Source of the DNA: Gemmatimonadaceae bacterium
Lineage (GTDB): Bacteria; Gemmatimonadota; Gemmatimonadetes; Gemmatimonadales; Gemmatimonadaceae
Direction of reading: 5' to 3'
Assembly (NCBI GenBank): GCA_020851035.1
Contig: JADZDM010000002.1
Location: 377,995 to 441,994 of the forward strand
DNA: 64,000 nucleotides
Position 1 is the first letter of the stretch; the number at the start of each line of letters is the position of its first letter. The notes under the pieces were generated by a model. It did not search any database. It saw only the letters and a list, made by a program, of their open reading frames with translations, and had not been told where the DNA came from. A program made the position numbers and the translations under genes. This document shows, one piece after another, positions 27,113-33,141 of this stretch.

Positions 27113-27331
27113 TCAGCGGGTGGAATCGTGGGTGTCGTGGCGTGACTCGTACTCGGCCACTTCCTTCTCGGCCGCGTCGCGCGTCTTGCCGTAACGTTCC
27201 TGGATCTTCCCGATGAGCTGGTCGCGCTTTCCGGCGACGACGTCGAGATCGTCGTCGGTGAGCTTGCCCCACTGCTCGCGCACCTTGCCCTTCGCGGTCT
27301 TCCAGCTGCCTTCGATGGTATCCCAGTTCAT
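27113..27331 (-). CDS. csbD: CsbD-like stress protein
   Basis: A 72-residue hydrophilic, helical protein with the CsbD signature: MNWDTIEGSWKTAKGKVREQWG, then KLTDDDLDVVAGKRDQLIGK and a lysine- and glutamate-rich end. CsbD proteins are abundant general-stress proteins of unknown mechanism, controlled by sigma-B in Bacillus. The start has CAGGAG just upstream. Only about 17 nt upstream of the codon lies a U-rich tract that ends a stable hairpin, so transcription reading into csbD must pass a terminator. That arrangement suggests attenuation by the structured RNA at 27348-27478. Confidence 0.9.
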   Translation of the reverse strand: MNWDTIEGSWKTAKGKVREQWGKLTDDDLDVVAGKRDQLIGKIQERYGKTRDAAEKEVAEYESRHDTHDSTR

Positions 27332-27347: not shown

Positions 27348-27478
27348 GGAAAACAAAAAAGGCGTGGCACGGCGCATGAGAGCGCCATGGTCCACGCCTT
27401 CGACTGACGAGGTCGATCCCCCCGTCCGCCAAGGAAACTCCACCTGTGCTGCCGGTGGAGTCGATGTCACATACACCA
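27348..27478 (-). ncRNA. Three-hairpin leader/sRNA, copy A (upstream of csbD)
   Basis: Reading on the minus strand, hairpin P0 is ACTCCACC/GGTGGAGT (arms at 27461-27454 and 27444-27437). The linker CTTGGCGGAC follows, then P1 (GACGGGG pairing with CCTCGTC, one G.U), then AGTCGAAGG. P2 is GGCGTGG/CCACGCC (27398-27392 and 27367-27361) with an inner GGCGC/GCGCC stem, followed by TTTTTTGTTTTCC (27360-27348), a textbook intrinsic terminator. The 5' end is estimated from the sigma-54-like box at 27489-27503. The same order of stems and linkers occurs in copies B and C, with compensating changes in the stems. It may be a free small RNA of about 125 nt, an attenuator of csbD, or both. Confidence 0.62.
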
Positions 27479-27488
27479 CGGAGACTTC

Positions 27489-27503
27489 GCAAGTTCCGTG
27501 CTT
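27489..27503 (-). promoter_or_regulatory. Sigma-54-like -24/-12 promoter for RNA copy A
   Basis: On the minus strand the 15-mer AAGCACGGAACTTGC matches the TGGCACG-N4-TTGC layout with exact spacing. The first two bases deviate (AA for TG), so the -24 box is imperfect. The TTGC lies 57 nt before the conserved CTTGGCGG linker; in copy C the distance is 58 nt. That common distance is the main argument that the site is real. Confidence 0.45.
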
Positions 27504-27506
27504 GTC

Positions 27507-27536
27507 CCCTGGTCGCGGCACCGGCCGCGACCAGGG
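27507..27536 (-). terminator. Hairpin directly after the response-regulator gene
   Basis: CCCTGGTCGCGG (27507-27518) pairs perfectly with CCGCGACCAGGG (27525-27536), extendable by one more pair in the loop. It sits one base past the stop codon of the receiver gene. No U-tract follows on the minus strand. It separates the two-component operon from the sigma-54-like promoter immediately downstream. Confidence 0.6.
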
Positions 27537-27537
27537 A

Positions 27538-28257
27538 TCAGTTGTACTGCAGCAGCAGCTCCAGTCGCTGGCGGAGGTCCGCCAGCTGCTTCGACTTGAA
27601 TGCGTGCTTCGTCTCCTCCAGCACCTCCACCGTGTGCTGTATCGCCGCCGTGAGCTGTGAGCCGCGCGCGCAGTTCATGATCTGGCAGGCATGCGACTCC
27701 ACCGGCGCACCGGCCAGCGCGCGGCCAAGCTGCTCGAGGTCGGTCAGCGACCCCATCACGTTGCGCAGCGCCAGCGAGAGGAAGGTGTCCGCCGTCGGCG
27801 CCCCGGGGCCCCGCTGCGTCGCGAGCTGGTCGTAGCGCAGCCGCATGTCGTTCAGGCGCAGTTCCGCATCCTGCATGGCGCGGAACGAGCGGAATCGGGC
27901 CACCGCCGCGTTCACGCGCACCTCGAGCTCGGAGAACTGCACCGGCTTGGTGAGGTACGCGGCCACCGGCAGCTCGATGCACGCCACCGCCGAACGCACG
28001 CTGGGGAAGCCGGTGAGGATGATGACGGGCAGCCCGCCCCGTACCTGTGCCACCCGCCGCACCAGCGCGAGGTCGTTGTTGCCCGGCATCTCCAGGTCGG
28101 TGATGAGCAGGTCGAACTGCTCATCCACCACCAGCTCCAGTGCCCGCGGGCCGTCGGCGGCCGTCTGCACCTCGTAGCCCTCGCGCCGCAGCAGGTCTGC
28201 CGTCGACTGGAGGAACGTGTCTTCGTCGTCCGCGATCAGGATTCGCCCGCGCGTCAT
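27538..28257 (-). CDS. Response regulator receiver protein without DNA-binding domain
   Basis: A 239-residue protein. The receiver domain occupies about 1-120: ILIADDEDTF gives the acidic pocket, LLITDLEMPG places the phospho-acceptor aspartate at 54, and a T-G-F and a K-P (YLTKPVQF) complete the set. The C-terminal half is a predicted helical region starting FRAMQDAELRLNDMRLRYDQL and containing further amphipathic helices, with no helix-turn-helix or enzyme motif. It could act by protein contact. The ATG overlaps the histidine-kinase stop by 4 bp (ATGA), so the kinase is its likely partner. Confidence 0.9.
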   Translation of the reverse strand: MTRGRILIADDEDTFLQSTADLLRREGYEVQTAADGPRALELVVDEQFDLLITDLEMPGNNDLALVRRVAQVRGGLPVIILTGFPSVRSAVACIELPVAAYLTKPVQFSELEVRVNAAVARFRSFRAMQDAELRLNDMRLRYDQLATQRGPGAPTADTFLSLALRNVMGSLTDLEQLGRALAGAPVESHACQIMNCARGSQLTAAIQHTVEVLEETKHAFKSKQLADLRQRLELLLQYN

Positions 28258-30851
28258 GCCGTCACTCCGGGAACCGTGCTCCCAGCCAGGGGAATTCGTG
28301 CGATGAACTCGGCACCGCCACCCGCGGCATCCGTGAGCTCGATGCTGCCACCCGCCGCATCGAGGGCGCGGCGCACCAGCGCCAGCCCGAGGCCCATGCC
28401 GCCGGTCGAGAGCTGCGACAGCTTGGTCGAGATGAAGGGCTCAAAGATGCTCTCGCGAAGCTCCGGGGGCACGCCCGGCCCCCGATCCGACACGCGGAGC
28501 ACGAACTCGTCGCCCTCGATCGAGCCCCGCACCATCACCCGGGCACCGGGCGGCGAGGCTTCGATGGCGTTCTGCACGAGGTTGTACACACACTGCCTCA
28601 GGATGGAGTTCGGGAGCCGCACGACCGCCGCCACACCGCCCAGCTCGACATCCACGCTCACCCCGGTGTTGCGATTGACCTGCTCCAGGAACGCGACGGC
28701 GTCACCCACCACGGTCTGCACCGGGGCGTGCGAGCTCGATTCCGTCTCGGGCCTGTAGGTCTCGTAGAGCTGCCGCGTGACCTGGCTGATGCGCTGCACC
28801 TCACGCTCGATCGCCCCAACGTACTTGATGTGGGGGTGGGTCGGCGGGATGGCGTCCTTGATGAGCAGGAAGGCACTCTGGATGCCCGCGAGCGGATTGT
28901 TGATCTCGTGCGCGATCCGCGCCGCGAGCCTCCCCATCGTGCTCATCGTCTCGGCCTGCCGCAGCGCCTCCTCGGCGTGCCGGCGATCCGTGATGTCGGC
29001 GAACATCCCCAGCAGGCGCATCGCCAGGCCCTCCGGGGTGCGCAGCACCACCCGCCCGCGATCGATGAAGTCATGCCAGCGACCCGACGCACTCCGCACG
29101 CGGTACTCCGCGTCGAAGGCATCGGAGCGGCCCGCGACGTGGTCGCGCAGGCGGTCCTCCACCCGCGCGCGGTCCTGCGGATGCACCAGCAGGAGCCAGT
29201 CCTGCATGTGTGAGTGCCCGTTGCCGGACGCGTACCCCAGCCGGCGCCAGAGCTGCTCCGAGCGGGTGACGATGCCGGTGTGCAGGTCCCACTCCCAGAG
29301 CCCGTCGGTGGTGGACTGCAGCGCCCGGTCGAGCGTGGCCCGCTCGTCCAGGCGCGCCGAGTACGACACGTTCTGCGCCAGCCGCAGCGCCAGGGCCAGC
29401 AGCACCGACACGGCGATGCCGAGCAGGAGGAGCACGTCGCTGAGCGTGGAGGGCGTGACCAGTGCCGTGCTCAGCGACGGCCAGACGCCGATCCGCCAGT
29501 CCGGGCCGCCGCGGATGATCGGCTCCTCCATGATCGCGCGAGCCCCCCCCGCCGGCAGCGGCGACGAGGCACTGAGCCATCGATGACGCGTGCCGATCGC
29601 GACCTCGAATCCCTGCAGCGTGTCGCTCGCGATGGCCCCGAGCAGGCGCCGCGCGTCGATCAGGCCCACGAACAGGTCGGTGCAGGTGCCGGCCTGGCAG
29701 CGCGGCACCACCATCAGCGCCTGGCTGGAGTCCGCCGCGAACGGGATGAAGCGCGTGACACCGCCCAGCTGCCGGATGGCGGCGGCGTGCGTGGCCAGCG
29801 CGCGGGTGACGCTGTCGCCGCGCGCCGCGGGCGTGACGCGGTCCATGCCGCGGCGCGCACCGGTGCTGTCGAGCCAGAGCACGGACTGGAGCCCGGAGAC
29901 ATCCTGCACCATCTGCGTCACGAATGCCAACCACATCGTGTCCGGGCTGCTGCTGTACCGCGCCATGCGCTGCAACGTGCGCTGCGTGACGCGCAGCTCG
30001 CGGCCGATCGCCACCCGGTTGGCCTTCGCCGCCACGCGGCTCCGCTCCTGCAGCTGCAGCCCCTCGCTGTGCAGCAGCGCGCGCCAGACGAACAGCACCG
30101 TCACCAGCGACCCCGCCCCCACCGACAGCGGCAGCCAGGCCGGCGGCGGCGCGAAACCGGTCTTCTTGCTCCACGCCATCGCGTTGAAGTGTGTCGCGAA
30201 CACGATCGCGCAGACCGTGGACTGCAGCGACGAGCCGAGCAGCGGCCCGTACTTCACCCCTTCCAGGAACCCGAGCAGCTGGCCCGCGATCACCGTCGTG
30301 GCCAGCAGCATCACGGTGCCGCCGGCGCCGGCCAGCACGATCGACGGCCAGAGCCCGCGCTGCCGCGAGAGGATCGAGAGCAGCCCGATGCCGCCGAGCA
30401 CGAGGAAGGCGCCGCTCGAGAGCGCGACCTGGCCCGGCACGGTGCCGTGCCAGACCACACCCGATGGCGGCGTCACCCGCGCGAGGACGTTCCACAACCC
30501 GTCGAACCCTGTGGCGTGCTGCAGCGGCAGTGAGCCGAGCACGATCGTGCTCCACGCCGACACCTGCGAGACGAATCGCAGGCGTGCGGCGGAGACGGTG
30601 AGGATGCCGACGCCGAGCGTCGTCAGGCCGATGGCGGAGCCGAGCCTGAGCGGGGGGAGACTGCGGAACGGCTGCACCAGCCACCACAGGTCAGCCGCCC
30701 ACCCCACGAGAGCCAGCACGCCAAAGGCCAGGAGGAGCTGCGCCACCAGTCGCGAGGCATGCGCCGACACCGCGGCCCGCGACCACGCGATGAGGCGCGG
30801 GCGCTCCGACATGGCGAGGCGGAACTGCTGCAGGACCGAGGCGATGGACAA
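28254..30851 (-). CDS. Membrane PAS-domain sensor histidine kinase
   Basis: An 865-residue kinase. The N terminus (about 30-260) holds roughly seven hydrophobic helices, followed by an extracytoplasmic loop (about 260-440) and a last helix near 455-475 that reads TLSDVLLLLGIAVSVLLALAL. A PAS domain with a PAC tail covers about 495-620 (DGLWEWDLHTGIVTRSEQL through FADITDRRHAEEAL). The phospho-accepting histidine is in IAHEINNPLAGI, near 648. The ATPase domain shows NLVQNAIEASPPGA, DRGPGVPPE and GGMGLGLALVRRALD. It is co-transcribed with the receiver gene downstream (4-bp overlap). The signal is unknown; the setting among stress genes suggests an envelope or energy stress input. Confidence 0.92.
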   Translation of the reverse strand: MSIASVLQQFRLAMSERPRLIAWSRAAVSAHASRLVAQLLLAFGVLALVGWAADLWWLVQPFRSLPPLRLGSAIGLTTLGVGILTVSAARLRFVSQVSAWSTIVLGSLPLQHATGFDGLWNVLARVTPPSGVVWHGTVPGQVALSSGAFLVLGGIGLLSILSRQRGLWPSIVLAGAGGTVMLLATTVIAGQLLGFLEGVKYGPLLGSSLQSTVCAIVFATHFNAMAWSKKTGFAPPPAWLPLSVGAGSLVTVLFVWRALLHSEGLQLQERSRVAAKANRVAIGRELRVTQRTLQRMARYSSSPDTMWLAFVTQMVQDVSGLQSVLWLDSTGARRGMDRVTPAARGDSVTRALATHAAAIRQLGGVTRFIPFAADSSQALMVVPRCQAGTCTDLFVGLIDARRLLGAIASDTLQGFEVAIGTRHRWLSASSPLPAGGARAIMEEPIIRGGPDWRIGVWPSLSTALVTPSTLSDVLLLLGIAVSVLLALALRLAQNVSYSARLDERATLDRALQSTTDGLWEWDLHTGIVTRSEQLWRRLGYASGNGHSHMQDWLLLVHPQDRARVEDRLRDHVAGRSDAFDAEYRVRSASGRWHDFIDRGRVVLRTPEGLAMRLLGMFADITDRRHAEEALRQAETMSTMGRLAARIAHEINNPLAGIQSAFLLIKDAIPPTHPHIKYVGAIEREVQRISQVTRQLYETYRPETESSSHAPVQTVVGDAVAFLEQVNRNTGVSVDVELGGVAAVVRLPNSILRQCVYNLVQNAIEASPPGARVMVRGSIEGDEFVLRVSDRGPGVPPELRESIFEPFISTKLSQLSTGGMGLGLALVRRALDAAGGSIELTDAAGGGAEFIARIPLAGSTVPGVTA

Positions 30852-30899
30852 CGGCGCTCCGTGGGTGACCTCATGACGAGCGGCGGCGCGGCACTGCTC

Positions 30900-31397
30900 C
30901 TACGCGACGGCGCCCGAGAGCTCGCGAGATGATGTCGTCGCGAACGGCAGCGCGTCCCGCACCGCCAGCGACCGCAATCGGAGCAGCGACCGCTCGAGGA
31001 TGTACACGCACCGGTCCAATCCGGATTGCCGCGCGATGCGCAGCGCAAAGCTGCAGGAGCCCATCAGGAAGAGCTGCGCCTGCTGCACCACGCCGATGAT
31101 CTCCTCGTCGCGCACCGGCGATGCCGGCAGCCGGCGCACGCGCGTGAGGGACCGGAACAAAGACCCCGTGAGGTCGCCATCGCGCCGGTTGGTATCCGTG
31201 AGCACGGTGCCGACGATGCCGTCCAGGTGCGCCAGGTGTTCACCCAGCACCGCCTCGCACTCCGCCAGCACCGCCGCTCCCTGCGTGGACTGCAGCAACT
31301 GCCGGAACACCGGCAGTGTCACGAACAGGCTGATGCTGCCGTCGTGCAGCTCCGCGAGTTCATCCGCGAACTGCCCGCTCACCCTCGATATCGCCAT
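30900..31397 (-). CDS. Divergent YciE/DUF892-like protein lacking metal ligands
   Basis: A 165-residue helical protein. I start at the ATG preceded by AGGAGGT. The C-terminal half aligns without gaps over about 43 residues with the YciE/DUF892 protein encoded at 32548: RDEEIIGVVQQ against KDAGIIAAAQR, and ILERSLLRL against LLEQTLEEE. In the ferritin-like YciE family this stretch holds the E-H-Y-E ligands; here the same columns read Q-L-F-L, so a di-metal site is unlikely. The N-terminal half keeps a similar helical pattern (SISLFVTLPVFRQLLQ). It is preceded by RNA copy B. Membership in DUF892 is my inference from this alignment; function unknown. Confidence 0.7.
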   Translation of the reverse strand: MAISRVSGQFADELAELHDGSISLFVTLPVFRQLLQSTQGAAVLAECEAVLGEHLAHLDGIVGTVLTDTNRRDGDLTGSLFRSLTRVRRLPASPVRDEEIIGVVQQAQLFLMGSCSFALRIARQSGLDRCVYILERSLLRLRSLAVRDALPFATTSSRELSGAVA

Positions 31398-31440
31398 CGG
31401 ACCTCCTGGTCGCCAACCGCGTCGGTCGGCGCCTGGCATC

Positions 31441-31560
31441 AGAGAAACGAAAAGCGCGAACGAGTCCCGTGGGGACTGGTTCGCGCCTTCAACTGACGAG
31501 CCCGATGTCTCGTCCGCCAAGTTGGTGCGGCACAGAAGGACTCTGCCCGCGCTGCACCAA
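31441..31560 (-). ncRNA. Three-hairpin leader/sRNA, copy B (upstream of DUF892-like gene)
   Basis: On the minus strand P0 is TTGGTGC/GCACCAA (31560-31554 and 31528-31522) with further internal pairing. The linker CTTGGCGGAC follows, then P1 GACGAG/CTCGTC (31514-31509 and 31500-31495) and AGTTGAAGG. P2 is GCGCGAAC/GTTCGCGC (31486-31479 and 31461-31454) with an inner AGTCCC/GGGACT stem, followed by TTTTCGTTTCT. The start codon of the DUF892-like gene is 44 nt further. A possible sigma-54-like GG...TTGC pair (near 31584-31596) is one base too close, so I do not annotate a promoter for this copy. Confidence 0.62.
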
Positions 31561-31648
31561 ATAAGTCCCGGGAAAATCCCTACGCAAGCGCACGCCGCTG
31601 CTTCGGCGCGGATCGTGCACCGGTGGCGCTCCGCCCCACCCGCACTCC

Positions 31649-31668
31649 GGCAGCACTTCCCTGCTGCC
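31649..31668 (+). promoter_or_regulatory. Inverted repeat upstream of the PNPOx-fold gene
   Basis: GGCAGCA (31649-31655) and TGCTGCC (31662-31668) are exact reverse complements with a 6-nt centre, 25 bp before the start codon. It could be an operator or a 5'-UTR hairpin. The rest of the 31561-31693 stretch shows no clear promoter. Confidence 0.4.
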
Positions 31669-31693
31669 CCAATGTCGATCGAGGGAACCTGAC

Positions 31694-32245
31694 ATGTCAC
31701 AAACTGCAACGTCACACGACACACTCAGCGACGAGGACGCCGCCGCCAAGCTCCGTGACCTGGTGAAGGACATCCGCGTGGCCATGCTCACCACGCACGA
31801 CGCCGACGGCACGCTGCACAGCCGACCGATGTACGCCCAGGAGGCCGAGTTCGACGGCGACCTCTGGTTCGCCACCGCGCAGTCCTCCTCCCTCGTGCGG
31901 CAACTGCAGGCACGCGCCGATGTGCTCGCGACCTTCGCCGACACGCACGCCCAGCGCTACGTGGTCGTGCGCGGTCACGCGGAAGTGACGCAGGATCGTG
32001 ACAGGATCCGCGAGTTCTGGAATCCGGGAATGAAGGTGTGGTTCCCGGCCGGTCCCGAGGATCCGGAGATCGCGCTGGTCCGCGTGCACGCACAGCGTGC
32101 CGACTACTGGGACTCGCCGGCAGCCCCGCTGCGCTGGCTGCAGTTCGTCACGGCCCTCGCCACGGGCAAGCGGCCCGACGCCGGCGATCGCGTGGGCCTC
32201 GACCTCGACGGTACCACGCCATCCGTGAAGCAGCACGCATCCTGA
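31694..32245 (+). CDS. Pyridoxamine 5'-phosphate oxidase-fold general stress protein
   Basis: A 183-residue protein of the FMN-binding split-barrel superfamily, closest in layout to general stress protein 26. Visible features are a helix (AAAKLRDLVKDIRVAMLTT), GTLHSRPMYAQEAEFDGDLWFAT with the conserved R-P-M step that contacts flavin in the family, VLATFADTHAQRYVVVRGHAEV, and RVHAQRADYWDSPA near 137-150. It is probably cytosolic and may bind FMN or another flavin; the physiological reaction is unknown. It is divergent from RNA copy B and its DUF892-like gene and is followed by RNA copy C, so it sits inside the stress cluster. Confidence 0.88.
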   Translation: MSQTATSHDTLSDEDAAAKLRDLVKDIRVAMLTTHDADGTLHSRPMYAQEAEFDGDLWFATAQSSSLVRQLQARADVLATFADTHAQRYVVVRGHAEVTQDRDRIREFWNPGMKVWFPAGPEDPEIALVRVHAQRADYWDSPAAPLRWLQFVTALATGKRPDAGDRVGLDLDGTTPSVKQHAS

Positions 32246-32271
32246 TAAGGTCGTGAACGCAGCGGCGTGGC

Positions 32272-32287
32272 TGGCACATCGCTTGCA
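32272..32287 (+). promoter_or_regulatory. Sigma-54 -24/-12 promoter for RNA copy C and yciE
   Basis: TGGCACATCGCTTGCA matches the sigma-54 consensus TGGCAC-N5-TTGCW at every defined position with correct GG-GC spacing. Transcription would start near 32298, just before RNA copy C, and read to the yciE-type gene. No activator gene of the sigma-54 type was seen in the window. Confidence 0.65.
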
Positions 32288-32296
32288 CCACGCTCC

Positions 32297-32422
32297 GGCA
32301 CGAACGTGAGGTGACATGGAACCCGGCTCCGGCCGGTTCCCTCCTTGCCGGATGAGTTGCCGACTCATCAGGCGAAGGCGCGAGTGAGGCCCGCATGCCG
32401 GGCATTCGCTCGCGCCTTCGTC
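32297..32422 (+). ncRNA. Three-hairpin leader/sRNA, copy C (upstream of yciE)
   Basis: P0 is GGAACC-c-GGC pairing with GCC-GGTTCC (32318-32327 and 32332-32340). The linker CTTGCCG follows at 32344, then P1 GATGAGT/ACTCATC (32351-32357 and 32363-32369). P2 is a perfect 12-bp stem CGAAGGCGCGAG/CTCGCGCCTTCG (32373-32384 and 32409-32420) with an inner GCCCG/CGGGC stem. Unlike copies A and B the U-tract is degraded (TCGTTCG), so read-through into yciE should be easier. P1 differs from copies A and B by paired changes (GATGAG/CTCATC against GACGAG/CTCGTC), which is covariation evidence. Confidence 0.62.
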
Positions 32423-32479
32423 GTTCGTGGCCTCGGTGCTCGACCCGCACGGCGGCCGTCCATCCGCCTGCGGTCGCGG

Positions 32480-32547: not shown

Positions 32548-33141
32548 ATGGCACTGGCGACCATGCACGACCTGATGATCAACGAACTGCAGGATCTCTA
32601 CAGCGCGGAGACGCAGCTGGTGAAGGCGCTCCCGAAGATGGCGAAGGGCGCCACGACTCCCAGCCTGCGGAAGGCGTTCGAGGACCACCTCGAGCAGACG
32701 CAGGGCCATGTCGCCCGGCTCGAGCAGGTCTTCGAGATGCTCGGCGCCACCGCGCGCGGCAAGAAGTGCAAGGGCATGGAAGGGCTGCTCGTCGAGGGCA
32801 CGGAAATGCTGGTGGAGGAGGGTGACGAGCTGGTGAAGGATGCCGGCATCATCGCCGCAGCGCAGCGCGTGGAGCACTACGAGATGGCGGCCTACGGCAG
32901 CACCATCGCCTTCGCGAACGTGATGGGCCACACCGAGATCGCCGAGCTGCTCGAACAGACGCTCGAGGAGGAGAAGGCGGCCGATGCGCTGCTCAGCAGC
33001 ATCGCCGAGGACGACGTGAATTCCGCCGCACCCGGCATGGAGGAGGACGCGGACGCCGGGGAGGACGAGGAGGAGACCGTCGCGGCCAGGGCGCCGTCGC
33101 GTCCAGCCGCGAAGAAGGGCGCGACGAAGTCGAAGCGCTGA
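32548..33141 (+). CDS. yciE: YciE/YciF-type ferritin-like protein (DUF892)
   Basis: A 197-residue DUF892 protein. It begins MHDLMINELQDLYSAETQLVKALPKMA, continues with FEDHLEQTQGHVARLEQVFE, KDAGIIAAAQRVEHYEMAAYGS and LLEQTLEEEKAAD, all hallmark segments of this ferritin-like four-helix family; E, H and E in the VEHYE segment are the expected metal ligands. The last 35 residues form an acidic then lysine-rich low-complexity tail (EEDADAGEDEEE, then AAKKGATKSKR) that is unusual for the core family. YciE/YciF proteins are induced by osmotic and general stress; the reaction is unknown. The gene follows RNA copy C and a sigma-54 promoter. Confidence 0.92.
   Translation: MALATMHDLMINELQDLYSAETQLVKALPKMAKGATTPSLRKAFEDHLEQTQGHVARLEQVFEMLGATARGKKCKGMEGLLVEGTEMLVEEGDELVKDAGIIAAAQRVEHYEMAAYGSTIAFANVMGHTEIAELLEQTLEEEKAADALLSSIAEDDVNSAAPGMEEDADAGEDEEETVAARAPSRPAAKKGATKSKR

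Follow-up and report, generated by a model that had tools for sequence, protein, structure and literature searches.

In ANTAR-type antitermination, the regulator, once phosphorylated, stabilises hairpins whose formation is incompatible with that of a terminator (PMC3369931), and the regulator EutV follows a plan of receiver, coiled coil and helical output domain (PMC8934654). The RAT elements of the BglG, SacY and LicT systems rely on a single hairpin that is held by a protein and overlaps the terminator (PMC3369931). Hairpins combined with an intrinsic terminator are also found in the yjbJ motif, upstream of a gene that is related to csbD by the authors of that work (WRC-39-1, NAR 2024), all 40 representatives of which stem from Streptococcus (PMC11109978).

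The window analysed here, a stretch of 64,000 nucleotides of DNA from a Gemmatimonadaceae bacterium, holds three copies of an RNA with three hairpins, P0, P1 and P2, of which the last two form its core. An earlier note had located these copies and described their stems and conserved strings, and each of these elements was recovered from the sequence. When the 5.0-Mb genome was searched for CTTGSCGGA-N12-40-AGNYGAAGGCG, only these three sites matched, and the reversed pattern, used as a control, gave 0 matches. The three copies fold far more stably than their dinucleotide shuffles (z of -4.9, -4.9 and -6.4; 0/200 shuffles equally stable). Rfam 15 returned no match in the window at gathering scores and, with E-values relaxed, none that overlaps a copy, and no description of the RNA was found in Rfam or in the literature searched. 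Two covariance models were used, R1, derived from the three window cores, and R2, built from 27 copies and run on 395 Gemmatimonadota genomes; their scores are included in the following list of features.

27113..27331, minus strand: csbD, target of copy 1 (Pfam CsbD, 4.2e-21)
27354..27433, minus strand: copy 1 core, with P1 (CTTGGCGGACGGGG...CCTCGTCAGTCGAAGG) and predicted P2 terminator with U tract; putative csbD leader; 76.8 bits with R1 (a model built from copy 1 too), 63.4 bits with R2 (cmsearch)
27434..27462, minus strand: copy 1 P0 hairpin, 9-bp stem GACTCCACC/GGTGGAGTT, directly 5' of the core
27541..28257, minus strand: response regulator (RR) with receiver, long helix and helical output domain; proposed RNA-binding antiterminator
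28254..30851, minus strand: sensor histidine kinase (PAS_3, HisKA and HATPase_c by Pfam), adjoining the response regulator gene
30900..31397, minus strand: uncharacterised 165-aa protein (GQFADELAELHDGS...), first gene after copy 2
31446..31521, minus strand: copy 2 core, with P1 and predicted P2 terminator; 85.6 bits with R1, 73.7 bits with R2
31522..31560, minus strand: copy 2 P0 region, TTGGTGC...GCACCAA imperfect hairpin
32318..32340, plus strand: copy 3 P0 hairpin, GGAACC/GGTTCC
32344..32423, plus strand: copy 3 core, with P1 and predicted P2 terminator; putative leader of the DUF892 gene; 87.6 bits with R1, 71.9 bits with R2
32548..33141, plus strand: DUF892/YciE-family gene, target of copy 3 (Pfam DUF892, 7.6e-58)

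That the three copies belong to a new conserved RNA family is, in our view, virtually certain. The check proposed in the earlier note came out in its favour: a covariance model made from these copies retrieved many more from related genomes, placed before csbD, DUF892, DUF1328, catalase and other stress genes and endowed with covarying stems. With R1, about 24 additional copies were found among 149 relatives; R2 detected the RNA at E<1e-3 in 27 of the 395 genomes, all of the same order and from two families. The family thus comprises at least 55 copies, the window's three and 52 in other Gemmatimonadales (Gemmatimonadota) genomes, and 55 distinct copies make up our working alignment, A5. At E 0.01, three copies are present in the window genome, 11 in G002 and four in G001, and most genomes of g22, the main RNA-bearing genus, possess one. 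Matches in three genomes of other families of the class and in G371 (E 0.004-0.01) were dismissed as chance, the sequences being devoid of most of the core. In forty genomes from outside the phylum's set, a single weak match (E 5e-4) was obtained, these genomes belonging to other groups. A DNA pattern scan of 84,980 genomes produced matches that were nearly all chance-like; among 80 records taken from it, only the two from Gemmatimonadota scored clearly with the model.

The stems covary strongly. Over the 55 copies of A5, 90.8% of cells are paired, two-sided changes occur in 22 of the 27 pairs, and the covariation score amounts to 0.531, versus 0.187 for shuffled alignments and at most 0.085 for slid partners; the argument from covariation to selection on structure, already made on the three copies, is borne out. 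Because A5 was aligned by fitting to the model, it is biased towards the structure; yet the first 24 homologues came from the three-sequence model, and the same measures applied to 27 copies are equally clear. P0 varies between copies, but 43 of the 55 have a stem with a score of 5 or more no further than 5 nt from CTTG, versus 13% of shuffles. P0 can consequently be accepted as a real class of hairpin; the one of copy 2 is imperfect. The strings CTTG[GC]CGGA and AGNYGAAGGCG, previously described as linkers, are indeed conserved but are not simply single-stranded; they are partly helical, with a linker helix of 3 bp (G4-Y38, N5-N37, C6-G36) lying beneath apical P1. The pair N5-N37 varies between A-U, G-U, U-A, C-G, G-C and U-G, and in copy 3 the GCC of this helix pairs with GGC, followed by GATGAGT/ACTCATC. 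Adjoining the linker helix is a G7.A35 mismatch kept in 54/55 copies, and G40 is present in 55/55. The loops of P1 vary, with lengths of 3-12, and contain no long conserved unpaired seed. In P2, 92% of the cells of the outer helix are paired over the 55 copies, and T is the commonest base at columns 122-127. P2 thereby shows the sequence features of an intrinsic terminator, a G+C-rich stem and a U run; termination itself is an inference from them.

These data also bear on a mobile palindromic repeat of the REP/BIME type without regulatory role, a reading that we consider barely tenable. The element is multicopy and clustered in G002, where 11 copies reach E<0.01 and five lie within about 7 kb (L048:2587-9735). 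Its stem sequences, however, vary and yet pair, its orientation and distance to genes are constrained, and both a regulator and related genes are linked to its copies.

The terminator hairpin P2 begins with AAGG, and upstream of G4 stands a CCUU (C0 in 47/55 copies, C1 in 54/55, U2 in 47/55 and U3 in 45/55; in copy 1, C0 is the C at 27434) that can pair with this AAGG to extend P1 into a longer form, P1-long. Pairing is possible for C1-G43 in 55/55 copies, for U2-A42 in 51/55 and for C0-G44 in 49/55, and only weakly for 3-41 (45/55, with G.A in 8). Conservation of the 2-42 pair in 51/55 copies compares with a shuffle mean of 43.9, and 0/2000 shuffles reach the observed value; this pair carries two-sided changes in four copies (A-U twice, G-U and C-G), and in three of these, which have U42, the P2 pair is broken while the P1-long pair is retained. 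Since P1-long and the base of P2 both use AAGG, the two folds are partly exclusive. Partition-function folding of the RNA before the 3' arm of P2 gives the P1-long pair 1-43 a mean probability of 0.86 (>0.5 in 52/55 copies); for the complete RNA, the corresponding value falls to 0.003, and that for P2 is 0.99. In these calculations P1-long would thus form first and P2 would win once complete, which is the behaviour expected of an attenuator. It is not proof of one, because P1-long takes only about 4 bp from P2; the remainder of P2 is stable, so that a held P1-long might not abolish termination.

mRNAs can be stabilised by 5'-terminal hairpins. Given this precedent, and as no effector has been shown, the RNA might be a fixed and unregulated 5' element, in which the mRNA is shielded by P0 and P1 while P2 merely sets a low and constant read-through. 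We regard this as very improbable, as it leaves unexplained the invariant G.A mismatch, G40, the alternative pairing of CCUU and AAGG, and the linked regulator.

Position relative to genes speaks to the function of the element. A start codon with a Shine-Dalgarno sequence mostly follows the U-tract at 20-130 nt in the same orientation; the core of copy 1 ends 22 nt before the start codon of csbD. Promoter-like boxes (TTG..., 16-18 nt, xA...T) are found upstream of 24/54 copies, versus 14.5% of shuffles, and many of the predicted starts map to the foot of P0, 26-39 nt upstream of CTTG. The boxes lend moderate support, at the level of sequence, to a transcript that would start near P0. As judged by eye, the outer 5' arm of the copy 2 P0, TTGGTGC, may overlap a promoter -10 element, TTATTT. 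Upstream of copy 3, at about 32270-32290 on the plus strand, resides a near-consensus sigma-54 promoter, TGGCAC-ATCGC-TTGCA, and similar sigma-54-like sequences were seen by eye before some copies in G001 and G002. Sigma-54 promoters were rejected as a general feature, as sigma-70-like boxes are commoner overall (the 24/54 versus 14.5% of shuffles given above).

The genes downstream of the RNA are varied, with many related to stress. CsbD is encoded there in the window, in G002, in G107 and, as a remnant, in G272; DUF892 in the window and G001; DUF1328 in G115 and G001; DUF4397 in G002 and G133, and as the second gene in G107; a long catalase in G133; and Ku and an ECF sigma factor in G002. 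Regulatory proteins form a further part of the list, with LuxR-type regulators in G012, G387 and G115, a receiver protein in G002, and a multi-HAMP kinase in G105, to which similar open frames correspond in G109 and G177. In genus g22, the usually single copy precedes mainly a sigma-54-type activator (L051, L200, L202, L210 and others), so a second tier of regulation may be fed by the leader there. For a few copies no target gene is evident; G002 contains two of these in convergent orientation (L048:9191 and L048:9658).

Copy 2 is the putative leader of a cluster made up of the gene at 30900-31397 and those for the histidine kinase and the response regulator. The description of this first gene as DUF892-like is possible but not established: its 165-aa product has no match in Pfam or NCBIfam, and profile comparison with DUF892/YciE gave a weak full-length similarity (probability 54%, E 1.3e-4). 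In each of the three genomes that represent the genus (the window genome, G001 and G002), an RNA copy precedes this gene.

The RNA is, with high confidence, a cis-acting terminator leader. The earlier note had left the choice between an attenuator and a family of stress small RNAs of about 125 nt; the attenuator is favoured because the distance from the terminator to a start codon preceded by a Shine-Dalgarno sequence is usually 20-130 nt, little room remains for another promoter, and the base of the terminator has an alternative pairing; a released short RNA acting in trans is not excluded. Neither P1-long nor the linked response regulator figured in the earlier note. That the terminated transcript of about 125 nt is itself the main product, a trans-acting stress sRNA, with the downstream genes coincidental or served by low read-through, appears quite improbable to us. 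Stable hairpins and a terminator belong to every copy, a promoter-like region belongs to many, and the few copies without an obvious target, such as the convergent pair in G002, would fit such a role; against this, most copies stand in the same orientation 20-130 nt before a Shine-Dalgarno start of related stress genes across genera, the loops vary, and no long conserved unpaired seed exists.

The kinase and response regulator genes sit between copies 1 and 2 of the window. The stop codon of the regulator gene occupies 27538-27540, and copy 1 starts 108 nt past the coding end. Its receiver is well recognised (Response_reg, 2.9e-23), with D54 invariant in 23 orthologues. Kinase homologues stand beside the RNA in most RNA-bearing loci, and orthologues of the regulator adjoin RNA copies in most loci fetched. 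In 22 of 23 loci, the RNA starts 81-265 nt past the coding end of the regulator on the same strand; as these 23 loci were fetched for holding the RNA, the spacing documents an arrangement and not an independent co-occurrence. In G107 the nearest RNA copy lies 1.9 kb from the regulator on the other strand, and in G133 no copy was found within 5 kb around it.

Co-occurrence was assessed with the 118-aa output domain of the regulator. Among 34 chosen genomes, it was matched in 18/20 with the RNA and in 0/14 without it; among the 395 Gemmatimonadota genomes, strong matches (E<1e-20) were confined to 25, and the RNA is present in 25/25 of these (Fisher P 1.4e-37, a value that overstates the association because shared ancestry and physical linkage inflate it). 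G130 and G387 have the RNA but no detected regulator; both genomes are incomplete, and their RNA copies lie near contig starts. Within genus g22, the one-contig, 99%-complete genome of G023 is without the RNA and without the regulator. In G272, which had been scored as RNA-negative, a weak output-domain match pointed to a decayed fragment of the regulator, next to which an RNA copy lies (E 6.6e-6), and this amounts to a small successful prediction. The locus (L245:1269-1951, minus strand) is a decayed cassette in which the RNA copy, a csbD remnant and a degenerate output domain run together. Collectively, we deem it likely that the linked regulator controls the regulon at some level.

It might, instead of acting on RNA, act on promoter DNA. 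A terminator-type attenuator whose effector is a ligand, as in a riboswitch, another RNA-binding protein or a trans RNA, with the response regulator active at the promoters of the regulon, is an unlikely explanation. The conserved unpaired or mismatched nucleotides G7.A35 (54/55) and G40 (55/55) could form a ligand site, no regulator was detected in G130 and G387 although both have the RNA, and promoter-like sequences lie upstream of copies. Simple tandem hairpins without a junction or a detected pseudoknot would, however, be unusual for an aptamer, the targets have no common metabolite pathway, and the regulator is encoded in nearly all RNA-bearing genomes, where it adjoins a copy.

The output domain is conserved over two families, with the signatures LRNVMGSLTDL, C-x4-C-PRG and ETKGAFKSKxLgdLRxxLELL (also AFKSK..LxxLRxxLE). 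It has no Pfam match, the whole regulator matching Response_reg alone; the NCBIfam matches listed for the regulator all belong to receiver-domain regulators and stop near residue 150. A sequence search of solved structures with the output domain gave nothing significant, and 30 genomes from other groups yielded no match to the domain. In the AlphaFold prediction, the receiver is followed by one long helix (108-148) and more helices, but past the long helix the confidence is low (pLDDT of the output domain 54 alone and about 44-72 within the full protein), too low for a comparison of folds. G120 and G296 encode remote relatives of the output domain with no RNA found nearby; the domain may therefore be more widespread than the RNA. 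A relative at L246:3185-3508, plus strand, is a stand-alone protein of 107 aa that lacks a receiver and is encoded directly before a response-regulator gene, again with no RNA nearby. The invariant C-x4-C cysteines of the window's output domain (27541-27906, minus strand) might sense redox or bind a metal, and might thereby provide a second input to the stress response.

The data lend themselves to a regulatory model in which the new cis-acting leader family places a stress regulon under antitermination that depends on the response regulator, a model that we favour by a modest degree. From a promoter just upstream, a transcript would start near P0. P1 would fold first in its long form, CCUUGNC pairing with GNYG-AAGG over the conserved bulge and G.A mismatch. 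In the absence of a signal, the 3' arm of P2 would take the emerging AAGGCG, P2 would close at the U-tract, and transcription would stop before the gene. Under stress, the neighbouring histidine kinase would phosphorylate the regulator, whose output domain would bind and hold P1-long, perhaps recruited by P0; with the base of P2 blocked, the polymerase would read through. Structure, covariation, competing folds, the position of the terminator, the targets, and the co-occurrence and adjacency of the regulator are computed; what is inferred is that termination occurs and is conditional, that the RNA is bound by the regulator, in which direction control runs and what stress signal is sensed. Against the antitermination model stands the lack of direct evidence for RNA binding, for transcript ends and for conditional termination. 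We regard it as an even question whether the linked regulator carries an unrecognised RNA-binding output domain of a non-ANTAR kind, and whether a stress regulon of Gemmatimonadales is run by antitermination at the new leader.

A candidate partner protein and a readable set of targets accompany the new RNA, and concrete sequences are now at hand for a direct test. If the model is true, a second kind of RNA-binding response regulator would exist besides ANTAR, a bacterial stress regulon (csbD, DUF892, DUF1328, catalase, Ku, a sigma factor and kinases) would be run by antitermination, and a stress response would be switched after transcription initiation and not by an alternative sigma factor alone.

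Among the known systems, the yjbJ motif is a find separate from the new RNA: it has two hairpins versus three, one target gene, and no linked regulator described (PMC11109978). The RAT elements resemble the new RNA in the overlap of hairpin and terminator, here through the AAGG common to P1-long and P2, but are unrelated to it in sequence. A further likeness is that RAT carries two internal loops separated by about 3 bp. CAT_RBD (PF03123) was rejected as a partner, with matches in 0/24 genomes in a search that was positive in four control genomes (E. coli, B. subtilis and others). ANTAR proteins were likewise rejected as partners, with loops, domain and gene presence all failing. Hexaloops with A1 and G4 are found in 0/55 P1 loops, the ANTAR domain PF03861 is absent from the linked regulator, hhalign of its output domain with ANTAR proteins of the same group gave a probability of 0.2%, and no ANTAR gene was detected in the RNA-bearing genomes G105, G107, G109, G115, G130, G133, G012, G068, G180 and G387. 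The targets differ as well, those of the new RNA being stress genes. The likeness lies in the design, in which a sensor kinase is combined with a response regulator of receiver, coiled coil and helical output (PMC3369931, PMC8934654), the leaders consist of tandem hairpins with the last overlapping an intrinsic terminator, and several targets belong to one regulator. As to exclusion of the terminator by a second hairpin, a feature of ANTAR systems, our folding calculation has P1-long and the P2 base competing for AAGG, and an effect of this on termination would be an inference. If the inferred RNA binding holds, ANTAR antitermination, as exercised by EutV/EutW, AmiR and NasR, would be the closest working parallel to the leader and regulator described here.
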